DNA of 64,000 nt from Burkholderia sp. BCC0322 (GTDB taxonomy: Bacteria; Pseudomonadota; Gammaproteobacteria; Burkholderiales; Burkholderiaceae). The notes under the pieces were generated by a model, which saw nothing but the letters and a program-made list of their open reading frames with translations, did no database searches and had not been told where the DNA came from. Both the position numbers and the translations under genes were made by a program. The stretch lies in assembly GCF_902833045.1 (NCBI RefSeq), contig NZ_CADFDU010000005.1, forward strand, positions 372,583-436,582, in the 5' to 3' direction. Position 1 is the first letter of the stretch, and each line of letters begins with the position of its first letter. This document shows, piece by piece, positions 24,357 to 40,993 of the stretch.

Positions 24357-25565
24357 ATGATCAATATTCTCGTAGCTTCCGACGACACCGCACGCCTCTC
24401 GCAGATCGCGCGCCTCGTGGCCGACTGCGGACGCTATCGCGCCACACGCGCGAACGGCCGCCCGTCGCAGATCGAACATCGCACCGACGGGCTCGACGCG
24501 TTCGACATCCTGCTGGTCGACGGCACGTCGCTCGACGCATCCGAGCTGGCGGCGATCGAGCGGATCTGTCGCGCTCACGCCGGGCTGACCTGCATCCTGA
24601 CGATGGCGGATACCTCGCCGCACGTGCTGCTCGACGCGATGCGCGCGGGCGCCCGCGACGTGCTGCAGTGGCCGCTCGACACGCAGGCGCTCGGCAATGC
24701 GCTCGAACGCGCGGCCGCGCAAAGCACGCGGCGCGACACCGACGATACGCGGATCATGTCGTTCATGTCGTGCAAGGGCGGGTCCGGCACGAGCTTCGCG
24801 GCCAGCAATGTCGCATTCGAGATCGCGGAGGGCTTCAAGCGCCGCGTGCTGCTGATCGACCTGAACCAGCAGTTCGCCGACGCGGCCTTTCTCGTCAGCG
24901 ATGAAACGCCGCCGTCGACGCTGCCGCAGCTGTGCGCGCAGATCGAGCGGCTCGACAGCGCGTTCCTCGATGCGAGCGTCGCGCACGTGACGGAGAACTT
25001 CCATGTGCTCGCGGGCGCAGGCGACCCGGTCAAGGCTGCGGAGATGCGCGAAGACGCGCTCGAATGGATCCTGGGCGTTGCCGCGCCGCGCTACGACTTC
25101 GTGATCTTCGACATTGGCGTTGGCGTCAATCGGCTGTCGATGGTTGCGCTGGATCGCAGCGACCAGATCGAGCTCGTGATGCAGCCCACGATGCCGCACG
25201 TGCGCGCCGGCCGCCGGCTGCTGGAGATTCTCGTGTCGCTCGGCTACTCGACCGACCAGATGCGGCTCCTCCTGAACCGTGCGACGCGCACGAGCGACCG
25301 GACCCGCACCGCGCTCGAGGAAGTGCTCGGCCTGAAGGCCGCCTGCACGATTCCCGACGACGCCGACACCGTGCTCGAAGCGATCAACCAGGGCCATCCG
25401 GTGTCGCGGCTCGCACGCGGCGCGGCGGTCACGCGTGCGCTGCAGGGTTACGCGAAACAGCTCGTCGACGGGGAGGTGCGCGCGGGACACGGCGCCGTGC
25501 GCGGCGAGCCGCTGATGTCCAGGTTGTTCGGCCGCAAGGTCACGCCGAAGCTCAAGTCCATGTAA
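24357..25565 (+). CDS. tadZ: pilus localisation ATPase TadZ/CpaE
   Basis: The 402-residue protein has an atypical receiver-like N-terminal domain (about 1-125, ILVASDDTARLSQI, ILLVDGTSLD) and a MinD/ParA-type ATPase domain with the deviant Walker A FMSCKGGSGTSF (Thr then Ser in place of the usual K[ST]T), VLLIDLNQQFADAA and DFVIFDIG. TadZ proteins localise the pilus machine to a cell pole or focus. It is followed by tadA after 19 bp. Confidence 0.9.
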   Translation: MINILVASDDTARLSQIARLVADCGRYRATRANGRPSQIEHRTDGLDAFDILLVDGTSLDASELAAIERICRAHAGLTCILTMADTSPHVLLDAMRAGARDVLQWPLDTQALGNALERAAAQSTRRDTDDTRIMSFMSCKGGSGTSFAASNVAFEIAEGFKRRVLLIDLNQQFADAAFLVSDETPPSTLPQLCAQIERLDSAFLDASVAHVTENFHVLAGAGDPVKAAEMREDALEWILGVAAPRYDFVIFDIGVGVNRLSMVALDRSDQIELVMQPTMPHVRAGRRLLEILVSLGYSTDQMRLLLNRATRTSDRTRTALEEVLGLKAACTIPDDADTVLEAINQGHPVSRLARGAAVTRALQGYAKQLVDGEVRAGHGAVRGEPLMSRLFGRKVTPKLKSM

Positions 25566-25584
25566 TTCTTTCGGGGAATCGATC

Positions 25585-26952
25585 ATGTCATTGCGCGAAC
25601 AGATGTCGTTGCACCGGGCCCCGCCGCTGGCGACGGGCAGCGAACCGGCCGGCCCGGCTCATTCGTCGTTGCGCGACGCGTACCAGAAACTGCGTCGCGA
25701 GATTCACCTGGCCGTGCTCGAGCGCGTCGAGCTGGAGCGCCTGTCGCGGATGCAGCAGGATCAGGTCCGGCAGGAAATCGCCGCGCTGATCTCGCGCATC
25801 CTCGACGACGAACGGATGCCTGCGAACGATATCGAGCGGCGACAGCTCGCGATCGACGTGTATGACGAGATGTTCGGCTTCGGTCCGCTCGAAGTGCTGC
25901 TGCGCGACCCCGGCATTTCCGACATCCTCGTGAACACGTACCGGCAGGTCTATGTCGAGCGCAGCGGCCAGCTCGAACTGACCGACGTGACGTTCTACGA
26001 CGACGCGCACCTGATGAAGGTGATCGAGAAGATCGTGTCGCGTGTCGGGCGCCGCATCGACGAATCGAGCCCGATGGTCGATGCGCGGCTGCCGGACGGC
26101 TCGCGTGTGAACGCGATCATCCCGCCGTCGGCGATCGACGGGCCGCTGATGTCGATTCGCCGCTTCGCGGTCAACCCGCTGAAGATGGACGACCTCGTGC
26201 GCTACCACAGCCTGACGCCGCCGATGGCCGAACTGCTCGACGCGCTGTCGCGCGCGAAGGTGAACGTGCTGGTATCGGGGGGCACCGGCAGCGGCAAGAC
26301 GACGCTGCTCAACATCCTGTCGGGCTTCATTCCGCGCAACGAGCGGATCGTGACGATCGAGGATGCCGCCGAGCTGCAACTGCAGCAGCCGCACGTGCTG
26401 CGGCTCGAAACGCGCCCGCCGAACATCGAGGGCAAGGGCGAGATCACGCAGCGCACCCTGGTGCGCAACGCGCTGCGGATGCGTCCGGACCGGATCATCC
26501 TCGGCGAAGTGCGTGGCGCGGAAGCGCTCGACATGCTGAACGCGATGAACACCGGCCACGAAGGCTCGCTCGCGACGATCCACGCGAACACGCCGCGCGA
26601 TGCGCTGACGCGGCTCGAGAACATGATCAGCACCTCCGGCCTGGCGCTGCCGCCGAAGACGATGCGCCAGCAGATCGCGTCGGCGATCTCGGTGGTCGTG
26701 CAGGCGGCGCGGCTGACCGACGGCAAGCGCAAGATCGTCAGTATCCAGGAGCTGACCGGGATGGAAGGCGACATCATCAACATGCAGGAGATCTTCACGT
26801 TCAAGCGCACGGGCGTGGACCGCGACGGTACGGTGCGCGGCCACTTCTGCGCGACGGGGGTGCGGCCGAAGTTCGTCGAGCGGCTGCAGGCGTTCGGCAT
26901 CAACCTGCCGGATGCGCTCTACGATCCGTCGCAGCGTTACGAGACGAACTGA
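25585..26952 (+). CDS. tadA: Tad pilus motor ATPase TadA/CpaF
   Basis: The 455-residue hexameric secretion ATPase powers Flp pilus assembly. It carries an N-terminal helical region, Walker A GGTGSGKT (232-239), an Asp-box-like [17 protein letters not shown], Walker [16 protein letters not shown] and the His box [17 protein letters not shown]. All motifs are intact. The ATG follows GGGGAATCGATC closely after tadZ. It partners with TadB and TadC, encoded next. Confidence 0.95.
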
Positions 26953-26985
26953 CGACATGGCGCCGTTTGCTGCCGGGGAGGCCGC

Positions 26986-27963
26986 ATGAACACGATCTTT
27001 TACGCCTTTTTGATTCTCACGTTCGTCGCGGTCGTGCTGGCGATCGAAGGCGCGTATCAATGGTGGAACGCGCGGCACGGCGCCGCCGCGCGCCGGATCG
27101 AGTCGCGGATTCGCGCGATGTCGGCCGGCGGCAACGTGCAGCAGGAGCGGCTGTCGATCCTGAAGAAGCGGATGCTCGACGAGTCGAAGCCGTTCGATCA
27201 GTGGCTGCTGCGCGTGCCGCGCGTGCATGCGCTCGATCTCCTGATCCAGCAATCGGGCCTCGACTGGACGCTGCCGAAGCTGATGGCGCTCAGCGCGGTG
27301 TTCGCGGCGCTCGCGTGGCTGGCGTTGAGCTTCGCCACGTTGCCGCAACTGGCCGCGCTGCCGATCGCGCTGTTTGCAGGCTGCCTGCCGACGATGTACG
27401 TGATGCGCAGCCGCAGGCGGCGCATGCGCAAGCTCGAACGGCAGTTGCCGGACATTTGCGACATGATTTCGCGCGCGCTGCGTTCCGGTCATTCGTTCAC
27501 GAGCACGCTCGGGATGGTGAGCGAAGAGTTTCCCGATCCGATGGGCGGCGAGTTCCGGATCACGTTCGACGAGGTCAACTACGGCGTGTCGCTGCACGAC
27601 GCGCTGATGAACTTCGCGACACGCGTGCCGGTGCAGGATCTGCGCTACTTCGTGATCGCGGTGCTGATCCAGCGCGAGACCGGCGGCAACCTGGCCGAGC
27701 TGCTCGACAGCATCTCCGCGCTGATCCGCGAGCGCTTCAAGCTGTTCGACAAGGTGCGCGTGCTGTCGGCGGAAGGGCGGCTGTCGGCGTGGATTCTCGG
27801 GCTGCTGCCGTTCGGGACCGCGGGGGCGATCGCGCTGCTCAACCGCGAGTTCCTGTCGGTGCTCTGGGAGGATCCGGCGGGGATCAGGATGATCGGCGTG
27901 ATGCTGGTGTCGATGGTCTTTGGTCTGCTCTGGATCCGCCGGATTGTCCGGATTCGCGTCTGA
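26986..27963 (+). CDS. tadB: inner-membrane platform protein TadB
   Basis: The 325-residue T2SF/GspF-type protein has an N-terminal anchor (about 3-20), helices near 95-135 and two C-terminal helices (about 265-320). The cytoplasmic GspF domain contains the typical LPDICDMISRALRSGHSF and VLIQRETGGNLAELLDSIS. It anchors the TadA motor in the inner membrane together with TadC. Confidence 0.92.
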   Translation: MNTIFYAFLILTFVAVVLAIEGAYQWWNARHGAAARRIESRIRAMSAGGNVQQERLSILKKRMLDESKPFDQWLLRVPRVHALDLLIQQSGLDWTLPKLMALSAVFAALAWLALSFATLPQLAALPIALFAGCLPTMYVMRSRRRRMRKLERQLPDICDMISRALRSGHSFTSTLGMVSEEFPDPMGGEFRITFDEVNYGVSLHDALMNFATRVPVQDLRYFVIAVLIQRETGGNLAELLDSISALIRERFKLFDKVRVLSAEGRLSAWILGLLPFGTAGAIALLNREFLSVLWEDPAGIRMIGVMLVSMVFGLLWIRRIVRIRV

Positions 27964-27999
27964 CGCGCCAATCGAATCACGAACCGTTGCGAGGCTGTC

Positions 28000-28962
28000 A
28001 TGCCAAACCTGAGCGTAGTCCACGCCGTGATGCTGGTCGGCTTGTTCCTCTTCGTGGCCGGCGGCGTGCTCGTCGCGATGCTGCTGTTCGCGCCGCGCAA
28101 TATCCAGCGCCGCATCCAGCAGGCCGGCGGCGCCGGCGTGGCCTCCGGCGACGGCGACGACATGGCGTCGCGCTGGGTCGCGAAGCTGGTGGAGCTGTCG
28201 ACCCCGATCTCGAAGCTGTCGGTGCCGAAGGAGGGCTGGGAGAGTTCGCCGCTGCGCGTCCGGCTCATGAATGCCGGCTGGCGCAACCCGAGCGCGGCCG
28301 CGCTGTATTTCACCGCCAAGACGGTACTCGCGCTCGCGTTGCCGTGCGCGGCGCTGCTGGTGCTGATCACGACCCGGCTCGGGGACGAGCGCGCGATCCT
28401 GTCGGTGATCCTCGTCGTGCTGGCCGGGTTCGGCTATTACATCCCGAACATCGTGCTGTCGCAGCGGATCAAGGTGCGCCAGCAGAAGATCTTCGAGGAT
28501 TTCCCGGACGCCCTCGACCTGCTTACCGTGTGCGTCGAAGCGGGGTTGGGGCTCGACGCCGCGCTGATGAAGGTGAGCGAGGAACTGCGTTTCAGCAGCG
28601 AGGTGGTCTCGAGCGAATTCGACCTGATGCTGCTCGAGATGCGCTCCGGCTTCGCGAAGGAGGCGGCGCTGCGCAATCTCGCGCTGCGTACCGGCACGGA
28701 AGACATCGAGTCGTTCTGCACGATGCTGATCCAGGCCGACCGGTTCGGCACGAGCATCAGCGAATCGCTGCGCGTGCTGTCGGACTTGCTGCGCACGCGG
28801 CGCCGTATGCGCGCGGAGGAGCGGGCCGCGAAGATCGCGCTGAAGCTGCTGTTCCCGCTGATCTTCTGCATCTTCCCGTCGCTGATGCTGGTGCTGCTCG
28901 GGCCGGCGATGATTCACGTCTATCGCGTGCTGCTGCCGACCTTCGTCGGGATGTCGCCGTGA
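28000..28962 (+). CDS. tadC: inner-membrane platform protein TadC
   Basis: The 320-residue GspF-type protein is related to TadB: N-terminal helix (about 8-28), paired helices near 107-150, the FPDALDLLTVCVEAGLGLDA and MLIQADRFGTSISESLRVLS segments and C-terminal helices. It is the last pilus gene here; no tadD, tadE, tadF or full tadG follows, so the locus is a reduced one. Confidence 0.92.
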   Translation: MPNLSVVHAVMLVGLFLFVAGGVLVAMLLFAPRNIQRRIQQAGGAGVASGDGDDMASRWVAKLVELSTPISKLSVPKEGWESSPLRVRLMNAGWRNPSAAALYFTAKTVLALALPCAALLVLITTRLGDERAILSVILVVLAGFGYYIPNIVLSQRIKVRQQKIFEDFPDALDLLTVCVEAGLGLDAALMKVSEELRFSSEVVSSEFDLMLLEMRSGFAKEAALRNLALRTGTEDIESFCTMLIQADRFGTSISESLRVLSDLLRTRRRMRAEERAAKIALKLLFPLIFCIFPSLMLVLLGPAMIHVYRVLLPTFVGMSP

Positions 28963-29225: not shown

Positions 29226-29692
29226 CGCGTTGTGCGCGATGACCCGGCAGTCACGGGTCGCAATCGGCGCTCCAGCGCCTCCCGAACGCAAGCGTTGCGA
29301 CGACGGGATCGGCGCCGCGCGATAACCTGAACGCTGCCGGCAACGGTCCCGACGCGCCGCGTCGGCGCTTCGGGATCGACAAGGCCGCCTCTGACCCGTT
29401 GTGCAACGGCGAGCGTATCCGCATCGCGTTCGTGCCGATCTCCGGCCGCGTGCTGGAGATCGGGCCGGCTACGTAACGGCATCTGATCTGAATCCGGGAG
29501 GATTCGCGGCGCGGGCGGTGGAAGGACGCATGGCCCGCCATGCGCCGGAAAAATCCGATCCGCACGATTGTTTCGCCGGTCACGTCAATTGCATCGATAC
29601 CTTGAGTTTCATCATCCAGCGCGCTACATTGCCGCTCGCAGATTTCCGCATGGACTCCTGCTCATCTTGTAATGCGTACGTAAGGAACCCCG

Positions 29693-31588
29693 ATGGGGCA
29701 ACAGGCGGAAGGCAACGACGACATTCCCGGCAACCCGACCGGCCGCGACGCGCTCGCGCCGGTCGCAGGGGCCGCCGCATTGCTGGTCGTCGCGCTCGGC
29801 ACGCTGGGCGCCGTCGACGTTCTGCCCGCGGATCTGCGCTGGTGCGCGCCGCTCGCCAGCGCATGGTGCAACGTGCTCGTCGTCGCGATCGGCGTGCTGC
29901 TCGCCCACCGTGCGCGCCGCCCTCTCCCGGAAGGGACGGCCATCACGCTGATCGGCGACTGGCTGCGTAGCGCGTTCAGCCGCAAGCAGGAGCCGGAGCA
30001 CGACGACAACCCGTGGCCGGCGATCGTCGCCGCGATCGACTGGCGGCCATGGGCCGTCGCCGCCGGCGGCGTGCTCTCCGTCGCGCTGGCCGCGCTCGCG
30101 TGGCAGCCGCCGTCGCCCGCGATGCTGGTGCGCGCGATGGCGGCGCCCGAACCCACGCTCGCGGCCGGCGCGGCCTGCATCGTCCTCGCCTTTCTGACGC
30201 TCGTCGCCGAGCGCCATCATGCGGCGGCGGCCAGCGGTTCGGCGGTGTCCGCGTCACTCAAGCGGGTGCTGCGCGTCGCGCTCGCCACCGCGCTCGCGGG
30301 TGCGCTCGCCGCCGCCTGGTTCGCGTTCCGGCACCGCACCGCAGACTGGCTCGTGCATGCGGTCGCGCTGCTCAATGCAGCCGTCGCCGCGGAACTGGCG
30401 CTGCGCGGCGTGCTGACGTGGTTTGCGGTGCCGCGCGGCGCCGTCGTGCCGACCAGCGCGATCGCCGGGCTGCTGAGCCGGCGCCCGTCGCCGTTCGCGT
30501 CGCTCGGCGCGGAGCTGCGCCATCGTTATGGCATCGATCTGCGGCAGAGCTGGGGCTGGCGCAGCTTCGTGCGGCTGCTGCCTGCCGCGCTCGCCGCCAC
30601 CGCCGCGTGTGCATGGCTGCTCACCGCCGTCGTCGTGCTGAACCCGGAGCAGCGCGCCGTCTATGAACGGTTCGGCGCGCCGGTCGCGGTCTGGCAGCCG
30701 GGCCTGCACGTCGGTCTGCCCTGGCCGTTCGGGCGCGCGCGCATCGTCGACAACGGCGCGGTGCACCAGGTCGCGATCGCGGGCAGCGCGAATGACGGCA
30801 GCGCCGATACGTCGCCCGTGCCGGCCGACGGCCCGACCCCCGAACGCCTCGACCGTCTGTGGGATGTGCCGCACCCGTGGGAAACCACGCAGGTGATCGC
30901 CGGCGCGAACGGCGACCGCCAGAACTTCCAGATCGTCAACGCCGACGTGCGGGTCGACTACCGTCTCGGCCTGACCGATGCCGATGCGCGCGCGGCGCTC
31001 TATCGGACGATCGACCCGGAAAGCACGGTGCGCACGAGCGCCAATCGCGAACTCGTGCACTACCTCGCATCGCATACGCTCGAATCGCTGCTGGAAACGA
31101 ACCAGGCCGCGATGGCCGACCAGCTGAAGCGCGCGATCCAGCAGCAGCTCGACCGGCTGCAAAGCGGGGTCGACGTGATCGCGGTCGTGATCGAGAGCGT
31201 GCATCCGCCGACCGGTGCGGCCGCCGCCTTCCACGACGTGCAGGCCGCGCAGATCCGCGCGCAGGGCAGCGTCGCGCAGGCGCGCGGCTTCGCGGCCGGC
31301 CTGCTCGGCAACGCGCAGCAGCAGGCGCTCGAACGGGTCGCGCACGCCGAGGCGCAGGCCGGCGACACGGTGTCGTCGGCGCGCGTGCAGCAGATCGATT
31401 TCGACGCCGACCTGGTCGCGTACCGGCTCGGTGGCCCCGCGTTTCCGTTCGAGTACTACCTCGACCGGCTGCAGCGTGGGTTGAGTAACGCGCGCATGAC
31501 GATCATCGACGACCGGCTTGCCGACGGCACGCGGGCGACCGTCGATCTTCGCAACACCCCTGCCGGCGATCTGGCCGGCATCCATTGA
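29693..31588 (+). CDS. multi-spanning SPFH-domain protein (HflK-like)
   Basis: The 631-residue protein has about seven hydrophobic segments in the first 312 residues, far more than HflK, then an SPFH/prohibitin domain (about 313-560) beginning VVVLNPEQRAVYERFGAP and containing NADVRVDYRL and IDVIAV-type strands, and an Ala/Gln-rich helical tail (QGSVAQARGFAAGLL). SPFH proteins build membrane microdomains and scaffold other membrane proteins. AAGGAACCCCG precedes the ATG. It is the first gene of a four-gene operon ending in a heavy-metal ATPase; a proteolysis partner such as FtsH is not encoded nearby. Confidence 0.85.
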   Translation: MGQQAEGNDDIPGNPTGRDALAPVAGAAALLVVALGTLGAVDVLPADLRWCAPLASAWCNVLVVAIGVLLAHRARRPLPEGTAITLIGDWLRSAFSRKQEPEHDDNPWPAIVAAIDWRPWAVAAGGVLSVALAALAWQPPSPAMLVRAMAAPEPTLAAGAACIVLAFLTLVAERHHAAAASGSAVSASLKRVLRVALATALAGALAAAWFAFRHRTADWLVHAVALLNAAVAAELALRGVLTWFAVPRGAVVPTSAIAGLLSRRPSPFASLGAELRHRYGIDLRQSWGWRSFVRLLPAALAATAACAWLLTAVVVLNPEQRAVYERFGAPVAVWQPGLHVGLPWPFGRARIVDNGAVHQVAIAGSANDGSADTSPVPADGPTPERLDRLWDVPHPWETTQVIAGANGDRQNFQIVNADVRVDYRLGLTDADARAALYRTIDPESTVRTSANRELVHYLASHTLESLLETNQAAMADQLKRAIQQQLDRLQSGVDVIAVVIESVHPPTGAAAAFHDVQAAQIRAQGSVAQARGFAAGLLGNAQQQALERVAHAEAQAGDTVSSARVQQIDFDADLVAYRLGGPAFPFEYYLDRLQRGLSNARMTIIDDRLADGTRATVDLRNTPAGDLAGIH

Positions 31589-31681
31589 CATGTCTCGGCG
31601 TTATCCGCGCGGGCGGCGCAGCACGGCGGCAGGCCGTGCCGCCGCCCCGCACGCGGGCGACGCCGCACCCGGGGCGACATC

Positions 31682-32725
31682 GTGAGTCTGTTTCATTCGC
31701 ACGCGCATGATCATGCGCACCACGGCCATGGCCATGACCACCATCATCACGCGCATCACGGTGCACCGCAGCCGCCCGGCGCGTTTCGCCTGCGCGTCGC
31801 GATCGCGCTGCTGTGCGTGCTCGTCGCGCTCGCGGTCGCAAGCTTCGTGCAGGTACGCGCCGGCGAGGCCTCGGTCGTCACGCGGTTCGGGCGGCCCGTG
31901 CGCGTGCTGCTCGAACCCGGGCTCGCGTGGCGGCTGCCTGCGCCGATCGATGCGGTGACGCCCGTCGACCTGCGCCTGCACACCACGTCGAGCGGCCTGC
32001 AGGACGTCGGCACCCGCGACGGGCTGCGCATCATCGTCGAGGCTTACGTCGCGTGGCGCGTGCCGGCCGATGCGCGCGACATCGGGCGTTTCATGCGGGC
32101 GGTCGGCAACGAGCCGGACGAAGCGGCGCGGCAGATCCGCTCGCTCGTCGGCTCCGCCTTGCAGACGACGTCGGCCGGGTACGATCTCGCGTCGCTCGTG
32201 AACACCGATCCGGCCCAGGTGAAGATCGGCGAATTCGAGGACGCGCTGCGCCGGCAGATCGACGCGCAGCTCTATGCGGCATACGGCGTGCGGGTCGCCC
32301 AGGTCGGGCTCGAGCGGCTCACGCTGCCGGCCGTCACGCTTGCCGCGACGGTCGACCGGATGAGCGCCGAACGCGAGACCGTAGCCGCGCAGCGTACCGC
32401 GGACGGCAATCGCGAGGCCGCGCAGATCCGCTCGGACGCCGAGCGCGACGCGCGCATCGCACTGGCCGACGCGAACGTGAAAGCGGCCGGCATCGAAGCG
32501 CAATCGCGCAAGGACGCGGCCGACATCTACGGCAAGAGCTATGCGGGTAACCCGCACCTGTACACGATGCTGCGTTCGCTCGACACGCTGAACGCGGTGG
32601 TCGGCACCAATACGAACCTGATCCTGCGCACCGACGCCGCGCCGTTCCGCGTGCTCGTGCAGGGCCCGGGCGACGCGTCGGGGCAGGCAGCACCCGCGCC
32701 CAACGCGCACAAGGCCAGGCGATGA
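31682..32725 (+). CDS. SPFH-domain protein (HflC-like) with histidine-rich N terminus
   Basis: The 347-residue protein begins with a tail holding 14 His between residues 5 and 26 (HSHAHDHAHH, then HDHHHHAHH), a likely metal-binding patch on the cytoplasmic side. One membrane helix (about 36-58) follows, then an SPFH domain (VRAGEASVVTRFGRPVRVLL, GLRIIVEAYVAWRV, AYGVRVAQVGLERLTLP) and a charged coiled coil (SAERETVAAQRTADGNREAA). The start is GTG 31682 with a weak purine-rich site. Its TGA overlaps the next ATG (ATGA), so translation is coupled. Confidence 0.86.
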   Translation: MSLFHSHAHDHAHHGHGHDHHHHAHHGAPQPPGAFRLRVAIALLCVLVALAVASFVQVRAGEASVVTRFGRPVRVLLEPGLAWRLPAPIDAVTPVDLRLHTTSSGLQDVGTRDGLRIIVEAYVAWRVPADARDIGRFMRAVGNEPDEAARQIRSLVGSALQTTSAGYDLASLVNTDPAQVKIGEFEDALRRQIDAQLYAAYGVRVAQVGLERLTLPAVTLAATVDRMSAERETVAAQRTADGNREAAQIRSDAERDARIALADANVKAAGIEAQSRKDAADIYGKSYAGNPHLYTMLRSLDTLNAVVGTNTNLILRTDAAPFRVLVQGPGDASGQAAPAPNAHKARR

Positions 32726-33765
32726 GCGAACCGTCCGCACCGCCGCTCGGGCCGGGCGCGCAGGCCGTGCGCCTGTCGTTCTGGTTCGTCGCCGCGCTCG
32801 CGGTGCTCGCCGCGTGCGCGTGGGCCGGCTCGAACATCCGGCGGATTCCGGCGGACAGCCGCGCGGTCGTGATGCGCTTCGGCGCGCTCGTGCGCACCCA
32901 GGACGCCGGGCTCGTGCTCGCCTGGCCGCAGCCGTTCGAATCGGTCCTGCTCGTGCCGGGCGCCGCGCGCGTGCTCGAACAGCGGATCCGCTCGCTCGAT
33001 CGCGATCCGCGGGCGCTCGCGCCGTCCGCGCAGGGTGTCGCGCGGCTGCCCGACGCGCTGGCCGGTTCCGGCTACGTGCTGACCGGCGACGGCGGCGCGG
33101 TCGCGTTGAGCGCGGTGCTCTATTACCGGGTCAGCGATCCGTACGCGTACGTGCTGCAGCGGGACCGTCTCGACGCGGCGCTCGAGCGGATCGTCTCCGC
33201 GTCGGCCGTCGAGGTCGCGGCGAGCCGCGATCTCGACGCGATCCTGGTCGCGCGCCCCGAGCAACTGGCCGCCGACCGGCAGATGGCCGCGCGTCGCGAA
33301 CGCTTGCGCGGCGATCTCGCCGATGCGATCGCGCGGCACCTGCGCGCACTCGACGCGGCGCACGCGGGGCTCGGCGTCGAAGTCGCGCGCGTCGACGTGC
33401 AGCCCGCGTTTCCCGGTGCGGCCGCCGATGCGTTCAACGCGGTGCTGACGTCACTGCAGGTCGCCGAGCGGACCATCGCCGAAGCGCGCACCGCCGCCGA
33501 ACAGCGGCGGCAGGACGCCCAGCAGGATGCCGACCGGATCGTCCAGGACGCGCAGGCTCACGCGGCCGAACGCGTCGCCACCGCGCAGACCGACACGCTG
33601 GAAATCCGGCAACTCGATGCGACGCTGCGCGAGAACGGCGATCCGGGGCTGCTGGCGCGGCTGTATCGCGATCGCGTGCAGCGCGTGCTGTCGAAAGCCG
33701 GGCGCGTGACGACGATCGATCCGCACGACACCTCGAACCTGATCCTGCCCGGAACCGCCCGATGA
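32722..33765 (+). CDS. SPFH-domain protein (HflK-like), third of operon
   Basis: The 347-residue protein has one N-terminal membrane helix (about 17-36), an SPFH domain (IPADSRAVVMRFGALVRTQD, VALSAVLYYRVSDPYAYV) and a long Ala/Gln/Arg coiled coil (TIAEARTAAEQRRQDAQQDA) typical of HflK-type oligomers. It overlaps both neighbours by 4 bp (ATGA), so the three SPFH/ATPase genes 2-4 form a translationally coupled set. It is most likely a structural partner of the His-rich protein. Confidence 0.86.
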   Translation: MSEPSAPPLGPGAQAVRLSFWFVAALAVLAACAWAGSNIRRIPADSRAVVMRFGALVRTQDAGLVLAWPQPFESVLLVPGAARVLEQRIRSLDRDPRALAPSAQGVARLPDALAGSGYVLTGDGGAVALSAVLYYRVSDPYAYVLQRDRLDAALERIVSASAVEVAASRDLDAILVARPEQLAADRQMAARRERLRGDLADAIARHLRALDAAHAGLGVEVARVDVQPAFPGAAADAFNAVLTSLQVAERTIAEARTAAEQRRQDAQQDADRIVQDAQAHAAERVATAQTDTLEIRQLDATLRENGDPGLLARLYRDRVQRVLSKAGRVTTIDPHDTSNLILPGTAR

Positions 33766-35705
33766 ATTCGTTCGCCGAACCGGCCGTGCAGCCGGACGCC
33801 GCTCCCGCCGGCAACGCGGTCTATGCGCTGTCCTCCGACGAGCGCCGCACGATCACGCGGCAGATTGCGCTGGCGCTGCTCGCGGGCGGCCTGCTCGTGC
33901 TGTCGTTCGCGTGGCGCATGCTGTCCGACGGCGGCGACACGCTTGCGCAACTGCTCGCCGCGCTCGCGTCGCTGATCGTCGCGGGGCCGGTGTTCGCGAG
34001 CGCGTGGCACAGCCTGCGCGCGCCGAGCCTGCACGGCGTGACCGATCGCCTGATCGCGCTCGCGATGCTGGCCGCGTGGGCGATCGGCGACATGACGACG
34101 GCCGCGCTGCTGCCGATCGTGATGACGTTCGGCCATGCGCTCGAAGAGCGCAGCGTGCTCGGTTCGCAGGAAGCGATCCGCGCGCTCGGCCAGTTGACGG
34201 CCGGCCGCGTGCGCCGCATCGACGCCGACGGCAGCGTCGCCGAAGTCGCGTATGACGCGCTGCGTGCGGGCGACCGCATCGAAGTGGTGGCCGGCGCGCG
34301 CATTCCGGTCGACGGCACCGTGGTGGCGGGCACGTCGAGCGTCGACAACGGGCCGATCACCGGAGAATCGGTGCCGCACGACGTTGATTCCGGTAGCACG
34401 GTGTATGGCGGCGCGCTGAATCTCGACGGCGTGCTGCGTATCGAGGTCACCCACACCGGCAAGGATTCGACGCTCGGCAAGATCATCGCGCTGATGCAGC
34501 ACGCGGAGCAGGCGAAACCGCCCGTCACGCAGGTGCTCGAGCGGCACATGGGCGCGTATCTCGCGCTCGTCCTGCTGATCGCGGCGATCGTCTGGTTCAC
34601 GTCCGCGAATGCGTCGGCGATGCTCGCGGTCATCGTGGCCGCGTGCCCGTGCGCGCTGGTGCTCGCCGCGCCGTCCACGGCCATTGCCGGGATCGCGGTC
34701 GGCGCGCGGCACGGCATCCTGTTTCGCAATGCCGCGTTCCTCGACAAGATCGCCGAGGTCGATTCGCTCGTGATCGACAAGACGGGCACGCTCACCCGCG
34801 GGGAATTGCAGGTCCGGCAGGTGTGGCTGCAGCCCGGTGTCGACGGCGCGCAGGCGCGTGCGCTGGCCGCGCGGCTGGGCGAAAGCAGCGCGCACCCGGC
34901 GAGCCGGGCGCTCGTTCGCGATGCCGCCGCGTTCGGTCTCACCGGCGGCGCCGTCGCGCCGTTCGAACGCACGCGGGAATTGCGCGGGCTCGGCGTCGTC
35001 GCCGACACGCCGGACGGCACGGCCGTGCTGGGTCGTCCGGCGCTGCTGGCCGACCACGTCGGAGGTTTGCCTGCCGCCCCGGAAGGATTCGACGGGCCGC
35101 TCGTCGGCCTCGCGCTCGGCGGGCGGCTGCTCGCATGGTTCGGGTTCGCCGACACGATGAGGCCCGACGCGCGCGAAGCGCTCGCCGAGTTGCGGACACT
35201 GGGCCTGGCGCGGCAGACGCTGCTGACGGGCGACCTCGAACGCGTCGCCGGCAAAGTCGCGGCCGAGACGGGCATCGATACGGTAGTCGCGCAGGCGCTG
35301 CCGCACGACAAGCTCGACTACGTGATGCGCGAGATCGGTGCGGGCCTGCATCCGCTCGTCGTCGGCGACGGGCTGAACGACGTGCTGGCGATCAAGGCCG
35401 GCTCGACGAGCATCGCGATGGGCGAGCGCGGCGTCGACATCGCGATTGCGTCGGCCGATGTCGTGCTGCTGGGCGACGACCTGAAGCGGATTCCGACCTG
35501 CATCCGCCTTGGCCGCCAATGCCGGCGCACCGCGACCACCAACGCGGCGATCGGCCTCGCGTGGACGCTCGCGGTGATCGCGCTCGCCGCGACCGGGATG
35601 CTCGGCGCGGTGTGGGCGGCGATCCTGCACAACGTCGGCACGTTCATCGTGATCGCGAATGCAGGGCGGCTGTTGCGGATCGACGAGGACGTTCGCGGCG
35701 CGTGA
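33762..35705 (+). CDS. P1B-type heavy-metal-transporting ATPase
   Basis: The 647-residue P-type ATPase shows TGES (actuator), the membrane metal site Cys295-Pro-Cys297 (ACPCALVLAAPSTA), DKTGTLTRGE with phosphorylated Asp339, the HP motif His378-Pro379 of P1B pumps, and GDGLNDVLAIK. It lacks an N-terminal HMA or His-rich domain. The last membrane pair reads ILHNVGTFIVIANAGRLL; ZntA-type pumps have an Asp in this region, so the metal may differ from Zn/Cd/Pb. Its start overlaps the SPFH stop by ATGA. The operon suggests that the SPFH proteins organise, feed or regulate this pump. Confidence 0.9.
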   Translation: MNSFAEPAVQPDAAPAGNAVYALSSDERRTITRQIALALLAGGLLVLSFAWRMLSDGGDTLAQLLAALASLIVAGPVFASAWHSLRAPSLHGVTDRLIALAMLAAWAIGDMTTAALLPIVMTFGHALEERSVLGSQEAIRALGQLTAGRVRRIDADGSVAEVAYDALRAGDRIEVVAGARIPVDGTVVAGTSSVDNGPITGESVPHDVDSGSTVYGGALNLDGVLRIEVTHTGKDSTLGKIIALMQHAEQAKPPVTQVLERHMGAYLALVLLIAAIVWFTSANASAMLAVIVAACPCALVLAAPSTAIAGIAVGARHGILFRNAAFLDKIAEVDSLVIDKTGTLTRGELQVRQVWLQPGVDGAQARALAARLGESSAHPASRALVRDAAAFGLTGGAVAPFERTRELRGLGVVADTPDGTAVLGRPALLADHVGGLPAAPEGFDGPLVGLALGGRLLAWFGFADTMRPDAREALAELRTLGLARQTLLTGDLERVAGKVAAETGIDTVVAQALPHDKLDYVMREIGAGLHPLVVGDGLNDVLAIKAGSTSIAMGERGVDIAIASADVVLLGDDLKRIPTCIRLGRQCRRTATTNAAIGLAWTLAVIALAATGMLGAVWAAILHNVGTFIVIANAGRLLRIDEDVRGA

Positions 35706-35729: not shown

Positions 35730-36686
35730 TCACTGAAAGTGATGCACATACCGCAGCACCAGCCGCGTGCCCTGCGGCCGGTTCCGCGCATAGGTCTCGA
35801 AATAGGCGTTGAACATCAGGTGATCGTGCGGCGAGACGCTGTACATGGCCCCCGGGCCGATCGCGAACACGGCCTCCCGCGTGCCCGGCACGTCCTGCCC
35901 GTTTTCCTTCATGTCGGTGGTCTGGCGCAGCCAGTAGCCGTTGAGCCCCAGCCGCAGGCCGGGGCGCACTTCATACTCGGTCGCGAAGTTCGCGTGGATA
36001 GCCTGGCCGGCCTGCGTCGACGTCACGTCCGGGCCGAGCGACGTGGCCGGCTGGTGGTTGGTCGCGTTCCACAAGTAATGCAGCCGCCACGACACGGTCC
36101 ACTTGGGCGTGAGCCACAGCGTCGCCGCCCAGTACGGATCGAACGACCAGAAATGGCTGCCGGGATTGATCGCGCGCGACGGGTCGTACGCGCCGGTCGG
36201 CGCGATGAACTGGAATTCGACGCGCTGCGCGAAGCGCGGGCCTTGCGCGCCCATCACCGGGTCGAACTGGATGAACGGGCCGATCAGCAGGTCGCCGAAG
36301 CCCGCACGCGCATTCAGCGCGACATGGCCGATGCCGTCGTCGGTTCGCGCGGACGCGATCCACGGCAGGATCACGTCGAGTCCGGGATGCATGCCCGCGA
36401 ATGTCAGCGGCGACTGATAGACGAGCTGGCTGAGCCCCGCGAACAGGTCGATGTCCTGCTTCGGCAGCCCGACCTTGTTGCCCGCGTTGTCGTTGACGCG
36501 GCTGGCCGTGTGGGCCTGCAGGTACTGCGTGCCGTACCAGCCGGAGCCGGCCGGCGGCATCCCGTCGAGGAAGCTGGTCATGCCGAGGTTGACCGCCGGC
36601 AGGTCGGCTGCGCCGGCAGGCGCGCCGGCGGACATGCCGGCGATCGTGAGGCCTGCGACGACGAGTACGCGAGAGCCGAATTTCAT
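35730..36686 (-). CDS. MetA-type outer-membrane protein of an aromatic-degradation operon
   Basis: The protein of about 318 residues has a signal peptide (VAGLTIAGMSAGAPAGA) and then beta-strand-rich sequence with many aromatic residues and an aromatic-ending C terminus (LVLRYVHHFQ). It fits the Phenol_MetA_deg family of outer-membrane proteins often encoded with aromatic catabolic genes and thought to import hydrophobic substrates. ATG 36686 has AGGAGGT seven bases upstream; a GTG at 36695 overlaps that ribosome site and is unlikely. It is the last gene of the indole-type operon. Confidence 0.8.
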   Translation of the reverse strand: MKFGSRVLVVAGLTIAGMSAGAPAGAADLPAVNLGMTSFLDGMPPAGSGWYGTQYLQAHTASRVNDNAGNKVGLPKQDIDLFAGLSQLVYQSPLTFAGMHPGLDVILPWIASARTDDGIGHVALNARAGFGDLLIGPFIQFDPVMGAQGPRFAQRVEFQFIAPTGAYDPSRAINPGSHFWSFDPYWAATLWLTPKWTVSWRLHYLWNATNHQPATSLGPDVTSTQAGQAIHANFATEYEVRPGLRLGLNGYWLRQTTDMKENGQDVPGTREAVFAIGPGAMYSVSPHDHLMFNAYFETYARNRPQGTRLVLRYVHHFQ

Positions 36687-36722
36687 GTTCACCACCTCCT
36701 GGGTATTTATTTGTATAACTAA

Positions 36723-37250
36723 TCAAACGGCGCGAAAAAGATCGGGGTGGTCGGCGATCGCGCGATACTGGCCCGCATGGAACACCAGCGGCGCACGGCC
36801 GAACGCGTCGAACTGCTCGATCTGGCCGATGAAGAGCAGGTGATCGCCGCCTTCGTAATGACCGACGTTGCGGCACACGAAGCGCGCGCTTGCGCCGTCG
36901 AGGCAGGGCACGCCGCCGGTTTCCGAATCCACGTGAAGCACGCCGTCGAACTTGTCGGCGCAGGGCGTCGCGAAACGGCGTGACAGGGCTATCTGGTCGT
37001 GCGCGAGGATGTTGATCGCGAAATGGGTGGCCGCGACGAAATCCGGGCGGCTCGGCGCGACCTTGCGCAGGCTCCACAGCACGAGCGGCGGATCGAGCGA
37101 CAGCGACGAGAACGAATTGGCGGTGAGGCCCACCTTGCGTCCGTCGGCCGCGCACGTGGTGATCACGGTCACGCCGGTCGGGAATTGCCCGAACGCGGCG
37201 CGCAACTGCATCGGGTCGAGGGCCGGGCGATCGGTAGCGGTCGTTTCCAT
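36723..37250 (-). CDS. iifD: flavin reductase of a two-component monooxygenase
   Basis: The 175-residue protein is a small flavin reductase (HpaC/StyB group): FGQFPTGVTVITT, GLTANSFSSLSLDPPLVLW, HFAINILAHDQIALSRRFA and C-terminal GRAPLVFHAGQYR. It would supply reduced FAD to the oxygenase encoded immediately upstream, whose stop is 5 bp before this start. GGAG precedes the ATG at 37250. The gene symbol follows the indole (iif) clusters and is by analogy. Confidence 0.85.
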   Translation of the reverse strand: METTATDRPALDPMQLRAAFGQFPTGVTVITTCAADGRKVGLTANSFSSLSLDPPLVLWSLRKVAPSRPDFVAATHFAINILAHDQIALSRRFATPCADKFDGVLHVDSETGGVPCLDGASARFVCRNVGHYEGGDHLLFIGQIEQFDAFGRAPLVFHAGQYRAIADHPDLFRAV

Positions 37251-37255
37251 GCCGG

Positions 37256-38494
37256 TTACTCCACGCGTGCGCCGTGTTCGCGGATCATCGCCGCGCAGGC
37301 CGACGGCTCGAACCACCACGGCGAGAACCGGCGCGGATCGTCGAAGCCGTCGACGATCGCCGCAGCGAGCGAAGGAAGCTGGCCGGCCGCGCCGAGCAGT
37401 TCGAGGATGTGCGGCGGCGGCGGCGTGAGCAGCGAGTTGGTCCAGCGCACGACGTGCTGCGCATAGGCCCAGTAGCCTTCGAACGTCTGCTGCATCCAGT
37501 CTTCGCCGAACGGTGCGGCATCGCGCGCGACGATCGCGTCGAAATAGGCCTTCGCGCATTTCGCGGCGTTGTTCGATCCCTGGCCGGTGATCGGATCGTT
37601 GACGACCACCGCATCGGCCATCCCGAACACCGTCCGGCCCGACGGCAGACGGAAGAACGGCTTGCGCACCGTCGGCGCGAAGCGCCCGGCCAGCGTGCCG
37701 TTCGGATCGGTGAGCTCGACGTCGCGGCAGCGTTCGAATTCCCACGGCACGTACTGCTGCAGGAACGACAGGCTCCGGTCGAGATGCTGCTCGGGCGTCT
37801 TGACGTCGGCCCAGCAGTCGAGCGGGCCGCCCGGAATGCCTTCGAACACCATGATTTCGCACGGGCCCGTCGTGGTCAGCGCGGGGAACACGAAGTACTC
37901 GCCGATGCCGGGCAGCAGGTTGAAGCGCACGCGCGAATACGGCTGGCTCGGCGTCATCCCTTTCACGTAGGTGAGGGCCAGCGCGCGTTGCGGGCGGTCG
38001 AACGCGCTGCGCACGTCGTCGCGGCCGAGCAGGTTGACGATCTCGCCCTTGCCGGCCGCGAGCAGCACGAGGTCGTGGCTGCGCGCCAGTGCCTCGAGTT
38101 CGGGTACGCCGATGTCGTCAATGCGCACGTCCGCGCCGCGGCGCCGCACGCCGTCGAGCCAGTCGGCCATTTTCACGCGCTGGTCGACCGACTGCGCGTA
38201 GCGGGTCAGCCGCGATGACCAGTCGATCACCTTGCGGCCGTTGCCGTCCGGATGCGGCACCGCGACGCCGATCCCTTCGATGGACGGGCACGATTCCTCC
38301 CACGTGTTCAGGCCGAGGTCGCGCTCGATCTGCAATGACGTGTGGAACATGCACTGGCTCGACATGACCTTGCCGGTGCGGATCTGTTCGGCATCGCGGT
38401 TGGTCGCGAGCGTGACGTGGTAGCCCTGCTCGAGCAGGGCGAAGGCGAGTTGCAGGCCGGACTGGCCGGCGCCGACGATGGCGATGCGTCTCAT
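37256..38494 (-). CDS. iifC: StyA-like FAD-dependent indole/styrene monooxygenase
   Basis: The 412-residue protein matches styrene/indole monooxygenase StyA in length and motifs: dinucleotide fold IAIVGAGQSGLQLAF with GAGQSG at 8-13, CMFHTSLQIERDLGLN, the FAD segment VFGMADAVVVNDPITGQGSNN and a C-terminal WFEPSACAAM. In iif clusters the homologue hydroxylates indole using FADH2 from the flavin reductase, giving an indole-2,3-dihydrodiol. With an SDR and a DLH-type enzyme upstream in the same order, indole is a better guess than styrene. ATG 38494 begins the Rossmann strand. Confidence 0.87.
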   Translation of the reverse strand: MRRIAIVGAGQSGLQLAFALLEQGYHVTLATNRDAEQIRTGKVMSSQCMFHTSLQIERDLGLNTWEESCPSIEGIGVAVPHPDGNGRKVIDWSSRLTRYAQSVDQRVKMADWLDGVRRRGADVRIDDIGVPELEALARSHDLVLLAAGKGEIVNLLGRDDVRSAFDRPQRALALTYVKGMTPSQPYSRVRFNLLPGIGEYFVFPALTTTGPCEIMVFEGIPGGPLDCWADVKTPEQHLDRSLSFLQQYVPWEFERCRDVELTDPNGTLAGRFAPTVRKPFFRLPSGRTVFGMADAVVVNDPITGQGSNNAAKCAKAYFDAIVARDAAPFGEDWMQQTFEGYWAYAQHVVRWTNSLLTPPPPHILELLGAAGQLPSLAAAIVDGFDDPRRFSPWWFEPSACAAMIREHGARVE

Positions 38495-38564
38495 GGATCT
38501 GTCCTCGGTTGGCCGGATGCCGGCCGGAATCGTGTTGATGAAGGGAAGCGGCGGTGAGGCGCGC

Positions 38565-39353
38565 TCACTCCGCCAGGCGCGGAATGGCCGGTACCGCCTG
38601 TTCGGGGCCCATCGCGGCATAGCCGCCGTCCACCGCGTAGTCGGCGCCCGTCACGAAGCTCGCTGCGTCACTGCACAGGAACGTCACGACCTGCGCGACC
38701 TCGGACGGATCGCCGACGCGGCCGAGCAGGTGGAACGGCGCGGCGACGCGATCGGTCTTTGCACGGTCGCCGTGCGTCAACTCGTCCATCACGCGCGACC
38801 ACGTCCAGCCCGGCGACACGGAGTTGACGCGAATGCGGTCGGGTGCAAGATCCATCGCCATGCTGCGCGTGAGCTGGCGGATCGCCGCCTTGGACGTCGG
38901 GTACAGCCAGCGGCCGGTTTGCGCGCACTGGGCCGAGATCGAGCTGAAGTTCACGATCGCGCCGCCGCCGCGCCGGACCATGTGCGGATGCACGGCCTTG
39001 GCGAGCATCGCGGCCGATACGACGTTGACGTCCATCGCGGCGAGCCAGTCGTTGCGGGTCGCCTGGATGCCATTGTCGACGTAGCTGCACGCGAGGTTGA
39101 CGAGCACGTCGATCGCACCGAACCGGTCGGCGATGGCCGATATCGCACGCTCGATCGCGCGATCGTCGGTGATGTCGAGCGCGACGAACATCGCCCGTTC
39201 GCCGAGCGAGGCGGCCGCGCGCGCGCCGTTCTCGGCATCGAGATCGAGGATCGCGACGCACGCACCGGCGCGGCTCAGGTCCTGCGCGACCGCGGCGCCG
39301 ATCAGCGTGGCGCCGCCGGTGACGATCGCGACTTTGCCAGCAAGGGCAGTCAT
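38565..39353 (-). CDS. iifB: short-chain dehydrogenase (IifB-like)
   Basis: The 262-residue SDR has the cofactor motif TGGATLIG (a variant of TGxxxGIG), NLAC in place of NNAG, the catalytic Ser in FSSIS and YPTSK as the Tyr-x-x-x-Lys pair. Family role: oxidises a hydroxyl group with NAD(P)+. In iif clusters the homologue oxidises indole-2,3-dihydrodiol to 3-hydroxyindolin-2-one. It lies between the DLH-NTF2 gene and the monooxygenase gene, all in the same direction. Confidence 0.85.
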   Translation of the reverse strand: MTALAGKVAIVTGGATLIGAAVAQDLSRAGACVAILDLDAENGARAAASLGERAMFVALDITDDRAIERAISAIADRFGAIDVLVNLACSYVDNGIQATRNDWLAAMDVNVVSAAMLAKAVHPHMVRRGGGAIVNFSSISAQCAQTGRWLYPTSKAAIRQLTRSMAMDLAPDRIRVNSVSPGWTWSRVMDELTHGDRAKTDRVAAPFHLLGRVGDPSEVAQVVTFLCSDAASFVTGADYAVDGGYAAMGPEQAVPAIPRLAE

Positions 39354-39393: not shown

Positions 39394-40641
39394 TCAATGC
39401 GCGCCCGTCGACGGCCCGCTGTCCTGCCAGCGGCGCATCAGGCCGTTCGACGGCACGGTTTCGTCGAGCAGCTTGCGGGCCGTCTCGACGCCCGCGACCG
39501 GCAGGCCCGCCGGATCGAGCAGGCCGATCTGCACGAGCACGCTTGCCTGGTCCCAGTAGATATGCTCGTGATAAAGCTTGTCGCCGCGGAATTTGACGAT
39601 CGCGACGAGCGGAATCTCGACGCGCTTGCCGGTCGGCGCGACGCCCGGCAACATCCAGTCGATCTCGGTGGTGTGCGTGAAGCAGAACAGCAGCTCGTCG
39701 ACGATCTGGCTCGCGCCGATCGTGCGCGAGATCGGCGTGATCGTCGTGTCCGGCGGATTGGCATGCACGAAATGATGCGTGTAGAAGCGCTTGAGCTCGT
39801 CGTGGCCGACGCCGCCCGTCAGCGTGGGAATATGGTTGACGTACGGCTCGGCAACCATCGTCGCCATCGTTGCATCGACGTTGCGCGTGTCGAATTCGTG
39901 TTTGAGGTGCGCTTCCCACAGTGTGGACAGGTCGTAGCGCGGGCCGAGCGCGGCGCGGAACGCGGTGATCGCGCGCTGGTGGGCCATGACTGCGGCGGCC
40001 TTGTCGAAATGATCGCCGCCGACGCGCGCGAACGCGTGATCGACGCCCGGATACGCATGCACTTCGACGCCGTCGCGCCCGGCGAGCGCGTCGGCAATGC
40101 GCTGCTGCGCGTCGGGCGGGCAGAAGCGGTCCTGCCCGGCGATCTGCAGCACGAGCCGGCCGTGCAGGTGCGACGCCTCGTCGAGCGCCTGCTCGATGCC
40201 CACGCCGTAGTAGCTGACCGCCGCGGCCACGCCCGGCAGCCGGCACGCGGCGAGATACGCGAGCTTGCCGCCGAGGCAGTAGCCGAGCACGCCGGTTTCG
40301 CCCGTGCATTCCGGCAACTGCCTGAGCACCCCGAGCGCGGCGCCGACGTCCTCGACGCCCTTGTTCTCGTCGTATTCGCGGTACAGGGCCATCGCGCGTT
40401 CGACATCGGCCGCGGCATAACCGAGTTCGGTTCCCGGCGCCTGACGCCAGAACAGGTCGGGCACGAGCACCGTATAGCCTTCCTCCGCGTAGTAGTCGGC
40501 GGCTTCCCGCATCGTCGCGTTCGCGCCGAAGATCTCGTGGCACAGCACGATGCCGGGCCCCTTGCCGGCGGCCGGCGTGCTCAGGTACGCGCGAAACGTG
40601 CCGCCGTCCGGCGACGGAATCTCGATGTGACGTCCTTGCAT
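39394..40641 (-). CDS. iifA: dienelactone-hydrolase-like domain fused to an NTF2-like domain (IifA-like)
   Basis: The 415-residue protein is a two-domain fusion. Residues about 1-240 are a dienelactone hydrolase alpha/beta fold with nucleophile Cys in GYCLGGK, Asp in GQDRFCPPD and His in GVDHAFAR. Residues about 255-400 are an NTF2/SnoaL-like barrel (TLWEAHLKHEFDTRNVDATM, VAIVKFRGDKLYHEHIYWD). In iif/ind clusters the protein at this position helps convert 3-hydroxyindolin-2-one to anthranilate without a cofactor. Which domain does so is not visible. ATG 40641 has GGAGGG upstream. Confidence 0.82.
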   Translation of the reverse strand: MQGRHIEIPSPDGGTFRAYLSTPAAGKGPGIVLCHEIFGANATMREAADYYAEEGYTVLVPDLFWRQAPGTELGYAAADVERAMALYREYDENKGVEDVGAALGVLRQLPECTGETGVLGYCLGGKLAYLAACRLPGVAAAVSYYGVGIEQALDEASHLHGRLVLQIAGQDRFCPPDAQQRIADALAGRDGVEVHAYPGVDHAFARVGGDHFDKAAAVMAHQRAITAFRAALGPRYDLSTLWEAHLKHEFDTRNVDATMATMVAEPYVNHIPTLTGGVGHDELKRFYTHHFVHANPPDTTITPISRTIGASQIVDELLFCFTHTTEIDWMLPGVAPTGKRVEIPLVAIVKFRGDKLYHEHIYWDQASVLVQIGLLDPAGLPVAGVETARKLLDETVPSNGLMRRWQDSGPSTGAH

Positions 40642-40993
40642 GTGTCCCTCCATAGGGTTCATCTCGGTGACAAGCCCAGTATTGGCGGACGAAATGGGCG
40701 TTTCTATCCGCTTTCTTCGGCCGGTATCCGCGAATTCCGGAAACCTGTGGCACCGGCCGCCGCGCGTGGGCCGGCGCGCGGCTGACTGCGGGTATGTGCG
40801 GATGCGGAAGCCCCGCACAGTTTTCTACGATGCGCGAACGGTCCGCTTCTTGCGTTGTTTGCGCGGGACTTGCGTGCTTTGGCGACCGGACTGTCCGGAT
40901 ACTCCGGGCGCTATCCGGATCGTGCGGCGGATGCCCCCATATCGGGAACGCATGCACGACGCGAGTGCAATCGAGCATGACGGGAGAACATCG
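40642..40993. promoter_or_regulatory. divergent control region of the indole-type operon and its AraC regulator
   Basis: The 352-bp region separates iifA-like and the AraC gene and must hold both promoters. Two TCCGGAT repeats at 40894-40900 and 40914-40920 are exactly 20 bp apart, a spacing suited to AraC/XylS binding on one DNA face. No promoter was fixed with confidence. Confidence 0.5.

Follow-up and report, generated by a model that had tools for sequence, protein, structure and literature searches.

Background

The best described counterpart of the genes treated here is the hmtA locus of Pseudomonas aeruginosa (PA2439-PA2434, with HmtA as PA2435), which comprises, in the order listed in the papers on it, genes for HflK-, HflC- and HflK-like SPFH proteins followed by the gene of an HmtA-type P1B ATPase. 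The same gene kinds in the same order were found in a 64,000-nt stretch of Burkholderia sp. BCC0322 DNA (contig NZ_CADFDU010000005.1, positions 372,583 to 436,582 of the forward strand; hereafter the window), where three genes for SPFH proteins (g1, g2 and g3) precede a gene for a heavy-metal pump (g4) and form with it what is called the cassette below. HmtA is reportedly a zinc and copper importer, the source cited for this by reviews being Lewinson 2009.

In a znuA mutant of P. aeruginosa, RNA of PA2437, PA2438, PA2439 and hmtA was reported to rise 14.4-, 10.6-, 9.0- and 5.6-fold, and a weak Zur site was described (PMC4542158). A preprint lists higher levels of the PA2439-PA2434 proteins in zinc-depleted cells, one of the seven listed p-values being below 0.05 (PMC11761036), N-acetylcysteine is reported to raise genes of the Zur regulon, the three SPFH genes among them (PMC9431628), and Zur is reported to bind the PA2439 promoter with a zinc-dependent shift (PMC8531726). 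Where this literature touches on the SPFH genes, they are treated as modulators of FtsH and not as partners of the pump. Whether P1B ATPases are able to import at all is unsettled in this literature: HmtA is called a zinc and copper importer in reviews, one of which states that its over-expression raises intracellular zinc and copper (PMC10393844), whereas according to a 2023 review all P1B pumps export (PMC10654040).

Analysis of the window cassette and its relatives indicates that the four genes probably encode one inner-membrane complex for scarce zinc, and perhaps also copper, in which three dedicated SPFH proteins organise an HmtA-type P1B pump. The cluster itself and its response to zinc in P. 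aeruginosa are already in print; new are the strict coupling of g2 with the pump, the signature of the pump, the His tail on g2 and the CDF fold predicted in g1. No title or abstract treating SPFH genes as HmtA partners, or reporting a link between CDF and SPFH proteins, was found in the open-licence literature, where the searches were not aimed at the pump signature (T/CPC/WT/HN) as such.

Gene organisation of the cassette

The four genes of the cassette are as follows.

29693-31588, + strand: g1, polytopic HflK-like SPFH protein, 631 aa (Pfam Band_7 at residues 315-532; PA2439 position)
31682-32725, + strand: g2, HflC-like SPFH protein, 347 aa, GTG start (Pfam and tree; PA2438 position)
32722-33765, + strand: g3, HflK-like SPFH protein, 347 aa (Pfam Band_7 at residues 41-258; PA2437 position)
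33762-35705, + strand: g4, HmtA-type P1B ATPase, 647 aa

A preliminary description of the window, made from its letters, had proposed that the three SPFH genes and the P1B-type ATPase gene constitute one tight operon, and this was confirmed in that the coordinates were exact and Pfam agreed. Band_7 was the only Pfam domain in g1 (E-value 2e-16), g2 (1.8e-29) and g3 (2.9e-18), and g4 matched E1-E2_ATPase and Hydrolase. The ATGA overlaps said to join genes 2 to 4 are present, each of 4 nt, at both g2-g3 and g3-g4, and 93 nt separate g1 from g2. DKTGT, the CP motif and the HP motif of P1B heavy-metal ATPases were all found in g4, and its family scores lie above the NCBIfam cut-offs for heavy-metal and cadmium-family P-type ATPases; a 963-aa open reading frame (ORF) beginning at 32814 is a mere upstream extension of its 647-aa frame. 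As had also been claimed, the pump is without a metal-binding domain of its own, no HMA domain being detected in g4 by Pfam, and the N-terminal tail of the window g4 contains no His. A scan of the window with two FtsH motifs gave one HExxH-like match and no Walker A of the FtsH type. The argument previously drawn from the missing ftsH did not hold, since its absence beside the cassette says little when none is annotated beside hflK-hflC of Escherichia coli either.

Conservation and co-occurrence

A total of 107 loci were analysed, consisting of the window, 6 plasmid loci, 80 loci from a genome scan (the best 80 of at least 257 confirmed relatives, titled Burkholderia, Paraburkholderia or Pseudomonas) and 20 Pseudomonadaceae regions picked from 37 matches; two locus pairs have identical pump sequences, which leaves 105 distinct pumps. 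By script, g1-g2-g3-g4 were complete and in order in 105 of the 107. At one of the two exceptions (L068) g1 had been overlooked by the script and was recovered by tblastn, and at the other (L019) no g1 was found. The 4-nt overlaps recur at g2/g3 in 86/105 loci and at g3/g4 in 90/105. Cassettes were found in Burkholderiaceae, Pseudomonadaceae, Rhizobium and one Klebsiella plasmid, and because the four-gene order recurs in such distant bacteria it is not due to chance. A strain-specific oddity is ruled out by the same recurrence; the genome-neighbourhood check that the preliminary description had called for thus found the pairing well beyond the strain.

A plasmid search with g2 gave 68 records, and among the 40 listed, ten had approximately 58-96% identity and the rest approximately 31% or less. 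Six of the ten closer records were inspected and all six carried the same four genes, on plasmids of Burkholderia ubonensis (predicted conjugative), Paraburkholderia, Klebsiella aerogenes (predicted conjugative) and Rhizobium (three). Near-identical cassettes, with g2 at 96-97%, occur in named Burkholderia records. The cassette is accessory in the genus of genome G001, because among G001 and 24 further genomes of that genus g2 was present at 96-97% in 5/25, the best match elsewhere being approximately 28-31%. On the Paraburkholderia sprentiae plasmid (L010:1-4235), the region 5' of the cassette contains genes for permeases of metal ABC transporters, a DUF2946 gene and the gene of a copper chaperone of the PCu(A)C type.

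Co-occurrence of g2 and g4 was determined with E-values of up to 1e-60 for g2 and up to 1e-115 for g4, the best 3-8 candidates per genome being scored. In Pseudomonadaceae, 37/248 genomes had g2 and precisely these had g4 too, both genes lying on one strand and no more than 4 kb apart. In Pseudomonadota, each was present in the same 10/398 genomes, again on one strand at a distance of a few kb; 7 of the 10 share coordinates with the Pseudomonadaceae sample and therefore only 3 are additional. No genome with g2 or g4 alone was found in either sample at these cut-offs. The cassette pump scored 686-1280 bits, as against 220-258 bits for the next-best P-type pump, in four genomes. The four genes are inherited as a unit, and the co-occurrence, the conserved order and the conserved overlaps all agree with the earlier suggestion that SPFH proteins and pump belong together; they almost certainly are a functional unit as well.

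The link between the cassette and hmtA rests on the kinds and order of the genes and on genome G169, which was taken as belonging to the P. aeruginosa group by its match to a Zur site: it was the only one of 20 genomes with the exact published 17-nt zrm Zur site of P. aeruginosa. In G169, g1-g2-g3 are followed by a gap with an extra ORF and then by g4, as in the P. aeruginosa hmtA locus, and the window g4 is 59% identical to its cassette pump. The extra ORF (L105:10035-10469, read by eye) encodes an apparently secreted product of 144 aa at the PA2436 position, between g3 and the pump. Spacings of 483-638 nt between g3 and g4 were observed in 8/105 loci, and the window has no such gap. It differs from the P. 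aeruginosa locus in lacking both the small ORF at the PA2436 position and a Zur box.

The pump and its ion-site signature

The residues of g4 that make up its ion-site signature, each of them found in 107/107 cassette pumps, are located as follows.

34098..34100, + strand: Thr113, aligned with the exit-path residue Glu202 of E. coli ZntA
34644..34652, + strand: CPC ion-site motif, residues 295-297
35562..35567, + strand: Trp601-Thr602, at ZntA Leu692-Lys693 (built-in counter-ion lost)
35628..35633, + strand: His623-Asn624, at ZntA Asp714-Thr715, like the His of the PIB-4 motif HEGxT

Alignment with E. coli ZntA showed that CPC, the phosphorylated Asp and the HP motif are retained throughout the 107 cassette pumps and that Glu202 is replaced by Thr, Leu692-Lys693 by Trp-Thr and Asp714-Thr715 by His-Asn. 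For comparison, 16 other P-type ATPases were taken from four cassette-bearing genomes; 12 were P1B pumps, four of them ZntA-like (E/K/D) and eight CopA-like (A/YN/M), and the remaining four are presumably KdpB, judging by their motifs. The T/CPC/WT/HN signature was found in 0/12 of these P1B pumps and in 4/4 cassette pumps of the same genomes.

Two classifications were tried and rejected. A ZntA-type pump (P1B-2 zinc exporter) retains E202, K693 and D714, for which T, T and H were found in 107/107 with CPC alone kept, and a PIB-4 pump has SPC and HEGxT, where CPC and HN were found in 107/107; the Thr of HEGxT is kept in 105/107. In a profile search of solved chains, g4 scored 321 bits with sCoaT (7qbz), 316 with ZntA (4umv) and 313 with CopA (3j09). 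These residues give the cassette pump a mixed ion site, and by its sequence it represents a subclass with its own ion-site signature. T, CPC, WT and HN mark this subclass in such a way that it can be searched for in genomes annotated with 'P-type ATPase' and 'protease modulator'.

The SPFH proteins

Three features of g1 and g2 were delimited.

29738..30415, + strand: g1 membrane domain, residues 16-241, six helices, predicted CDF (YiiP/ZnT) fold
30635..31288, + strand: g1 SPFH domain, residues 315-532 (Pfam), probably periplasmic
31694..31759, + strand: g2 N-terminal His-rich tail (translation), probably cytosolic

Residues 5-26 of the window g2 contain 14 His, which bears out the 14 His in 22 residues noted before, and the tail proved to be a trait of the family: at least five His precede the first helix in 106/107 g2 proteins (median 14), compared with 31/107 g4, 3/105 g1 and 0/107 g3. 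The sole g2 without the tail is that of the Klebsiella plasmid, where the tail of the pump has 5 His. Canonical HflC has no His before its first helix in any of five proteins (5/5). HflC has its N-terminus on the cytosolic side, and because of this topology and the Arg residues preceding the helix, the g2 tail should probably be cytosolic as well. The g2 start was taken as the one nearest the upstream stop, TTG being allowed; by this choice TTG is the start codon in 82/107 and GTG in 14/107 (together 96/107), which may set a low dose of g2.

A quick maximum-likelihood tree was computed from 49 rows, comprising 12 of the 107 loci and references, for which the program flagged long branches and unusual letter composition. 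In it g1, g2 and g3 each formed one clade with support of 98-99 (g1: 12 rows, 99), g2 beside canonical HflC and g1 and g3 on the HflK side. The scores of g1 (74 bits against a cut-off of 159.4), g2 (111 against 134.4) and g3 (104.1 against 159.4) fall short of the NCBIfam thresholds for HflK/HflC, and with these scores and the separate clades an assignment of the trio to canonical HflK/HflC was rejected. Canonical HflK and HflC are present in the four genomes examined, two of which (G042 and G010) also carry the cassette.

These results bear on a reading in which the SPFH trio would be extra FtsH modulators that, when zinc is short, guard or clear membrane proteins, the pump among them. FtsH is a zinc protease, and by profile the best solved relatives are HflK for g1 (the only one found) and HflC for g2. 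This reading, in keeping with which PA2437-PA2439 are annotated in the literature on P. aeruginosa (PMC4542158, PMC11761036, PMC9431628), is nevertheless very improbable: all three proteins score below the HflK/HflC cut-offs, G042 and G010 have canonical hflK and hflC in addition to the cassette, g2 tracks one pump subfamily across the genome samples, and the five canonical HflC proteins lack the His tail.

The predicted structure of the g1 membrane domain has the CDF fold, and g1 is accordingly predicted to join a CDF-like membrane domain to an SPFH domain of the HflK type. Among 27 proteins, no invariant D or H was found in helices 2 and 5 of the membrane domain, and PF01545 was matched by 0/27 at E-values of up to 1, so that there is no sequence-level CDF match.

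A parallel arrangement was observed on a plasmid of Aquibium oceanicum (NZ_CP018172.1), with an HflK-HflC-HflK trio, a gene for a peptidyl-prolyl isomerase, a pump with the ZntA residues and then PCu(A)C and SCO genes. The first SPFH gene of this trio (L015:6358-7905), annotated just as HflK, encodes a CDF-SPFH fusion (Cation_efflux E-value 4.5e-25, Band_7 E-value 2.9e-20) that carries HSLAD and HSQVD motifs. In the tree the Aquibium trio groups, on long branches, with canonical HflK/HflC and outside the g1-g3 clades. A search of 72,556 plasmid records for this type of fusion at 80% coverage returned one match, itself, and of 289 genomes from the class to which G396 belongs (taken to be Alphaproteobacteria; E-values of up to 1e-45, at most 5 candidates scored per genome) 59 matched, all of them over the SPFH half only.

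Regulation, and scarcity versus resistance

One promoter was located upstream of the cassette in the window.

29602..29630, + strand: sigma-70-like promoter, TTGAGT-17 nt-TACATT, conserved, 5' of g1 (upstream alignments)

This promoter, TTGAGT-17-TACATT/TAAATT, is common to Burkholderia and Paraburkholderia (5 Burkholderia-type and 7 Paraburkholderia upstream regions), its hexamers having been chosen by eye in the alignments. A Zur-type 13-nt palindrome with at most 2 mismatches was found 5' of g1 in 62/76 Pseudomonadaceae loci and in 12/1347 control windows, a count that is not blind because the 13-nt spacing was set after a first look at those sequences. In the window, the best match to this Pseudomonas-type motif has 5 mismatches. 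In G042 the exact motif GTTATRNYRTAAC occurs at three places, namely beside zigA, between folE2 and an amidase-like gene, and before the cassette; its backward control had 2 matches. Exact GTTATRNYRTAAC was not at the cassette in G169 (5 places) or G396 (2 places), and G010 had none. A perfect palindrome, GATACGTAATAACGTATC, was observed 5' of g1 in L012 and L014 (Rhizobium) and L123 (genome G396), and not in L013. In the whole of G396 it has one exact place, at the cassette, and one with 3 mismatches; it identifies no regulon, because the backward control pattern matched too.

Control by zinc scarcity is supported for Pseudomonas; for the group of the window we infer it, because neither the window nor the 23 Burkholderiaceae loci yielded a Zur-type box. 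A cassette serving scarcity rather than resistance is likely, and its substrate is very probably zinc or copper. Several points weigh against a complex for scarce zinc: zinc did not repress hmtA in the same study that reports the Zur shift (PMC8531726), a review excepts hmtA from Zur binding in its account of the regulon (PMC10393844), and the Zur-type box was found at 0/23 Burkholderiaceae loci, although the motif is of Pseudomonas type and may not be Burkholderia's own.

The preliminary description had taken the cassette for a metal-efflux platform, in which SPFH oligomers gather an exporting pump into clusters and their His tails supply it with metal, resulting in metal resistance. It could draw on the rule that P1B pumps without exception export (PMC10654040), on the location of the His tails, which probably is the cytosolic side, where exporters load, on the two cassettes carried by predicted conjugative plasmids, as is often the case with resistance genes, and on PacL1-CtpC as a precedent. 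It is nevertheless unlikely, and was set aside as the principal explanation because in P. aeruginosa the genes are reported to be induced when zinc is depleted, and their promoter to be bound by Zn-Zur; the Zur-type boxes of the Pseudomonadaceae loci, and the substitution of ZntA E202, K693 and D714 in all cassette pumps, also speak against efflux.

Export might also occur in scarcity itself. The pump would then send zinc or copper to the periplasm, the SPFH dome would be a loading chamber for secreted metal enzymes, and the operon would be switched on when these enzymes starve. Pumps of the CcoI type load oxidases. This proposal is compatible with both the P1B direction rule and zinc-starvation control, and PCu(A)C genes lie near cassette L010 and, together with SCO genes, near the Aquibium parallel (L015), which is outside the cassette family. 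It is considered improbable: the annotation of the three other neighbourhoods inspected lists no PCu(A)C gene, and over-expressed HmtA is reported to raise zinc and copper inside the cell (PMC10393844).

Proposed mechanism

In the complex for scarce zinc that is preferred here, the N-termini of the SPFH proteins would be cytosolic and their SPFH domains periplasmic, as in HflK/HflC, and because of this the three proteins together would enclose the outer mouth of the pump in a mixed dome or ring. The CDF-like domain of g1, without conserved metal ligands, may be a membrane docking part and not a transporter. The pump would carry metal from the lumen of the dome inward to the cell, where the cytosolic His tails would take it and keep it for hand-over. 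For the g2 His tail acting as a cytosolic receiver the chances seem even, and those of the pump sitting inside the SPFH dome slightly poorer than that.

The most far-reaching version is doubtful, and would have an inward P1B pump held permanently in a hetero-SPFH dome that gates its periplasmic mouth, a retired CDF zinc transporter, fused to an SPFH subunit, as the anchor and a ring of cytosolic His tails as the metal collector. Should it be true, SPFH cages would be pump housings and not only protease regulators, and the same design would have arisen a second time in the Aquibium plasmid cassette. Assays of the pump on its own could be misleading if pumps of the HmtA type depend on SPFH partners, and the question of direction could then be tested directly by comparing the pump with and without the trio.

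Neighbouring genes in the window

A probable Tad pilus cluster lies just 5' of the cassette (24357-28962), where the genes encode two ATPases, one CpaE/MinD-like and the other TadA-like, and two T2SSF proteins. Downstream, at 35730-38620 (minus strand) and 40640-42019, matches were observed to a family of putative phenol-degradation proteins (MetA), to a styrene monooxygenase domain and, below the cut-off, to the regulator AndR, so that this is perhaps a region for aromatic degradation.

Comparison with known systems

In PacL1-CtpC of mycobacteria, as in the cassette, a scaffold protein with a metal-binding motif adjoins a P1B pump. The likeness drawn in the preliminary description therefore stands in its logic of scaffold, metal-binding tail and P1B pump, and fails for the proteins and conditions: PacL1 is a DUF1490 protein, the system resists excess zinc, and its foci need no flotillin.

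The PIB-4 ATPase sCoaT (7qbz), the top and nearly tied profile match of the pump, resembles it in that the cassette-pump His aligns with the HEGxT His, proposed in sCoaT as a built-in counter-ion (PMC8880997). The cassette pump differs in having CPC and not SPC, N and not E after the His, and T at the exit-path Glu, for which Glu120 of sCoaT, overlaying ZntA Glu202, was proposed as a ligand (PMC8880997). With the CDF zinc transporters (YiiP, ZnT), the membrane domain of g1 shares the predicted fold, but has neither the conserved D/H metal ligands in helices 2/5 nor a sequence-level match.

The complex of HflK/HflC with FtsH is akin to the cassette trio through the SPFH domains and the same likely topology, g2 going with HflC and g1 and g3 with the HflK side. 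The trio is set apart by its separate clades, its scores below the cut-offs, the His tail, the predicted CDF-like domain and a pump as its genetic partner. If the pump needs the trio, the cassette would give SPFH proteins a specific role apart from FtsH.

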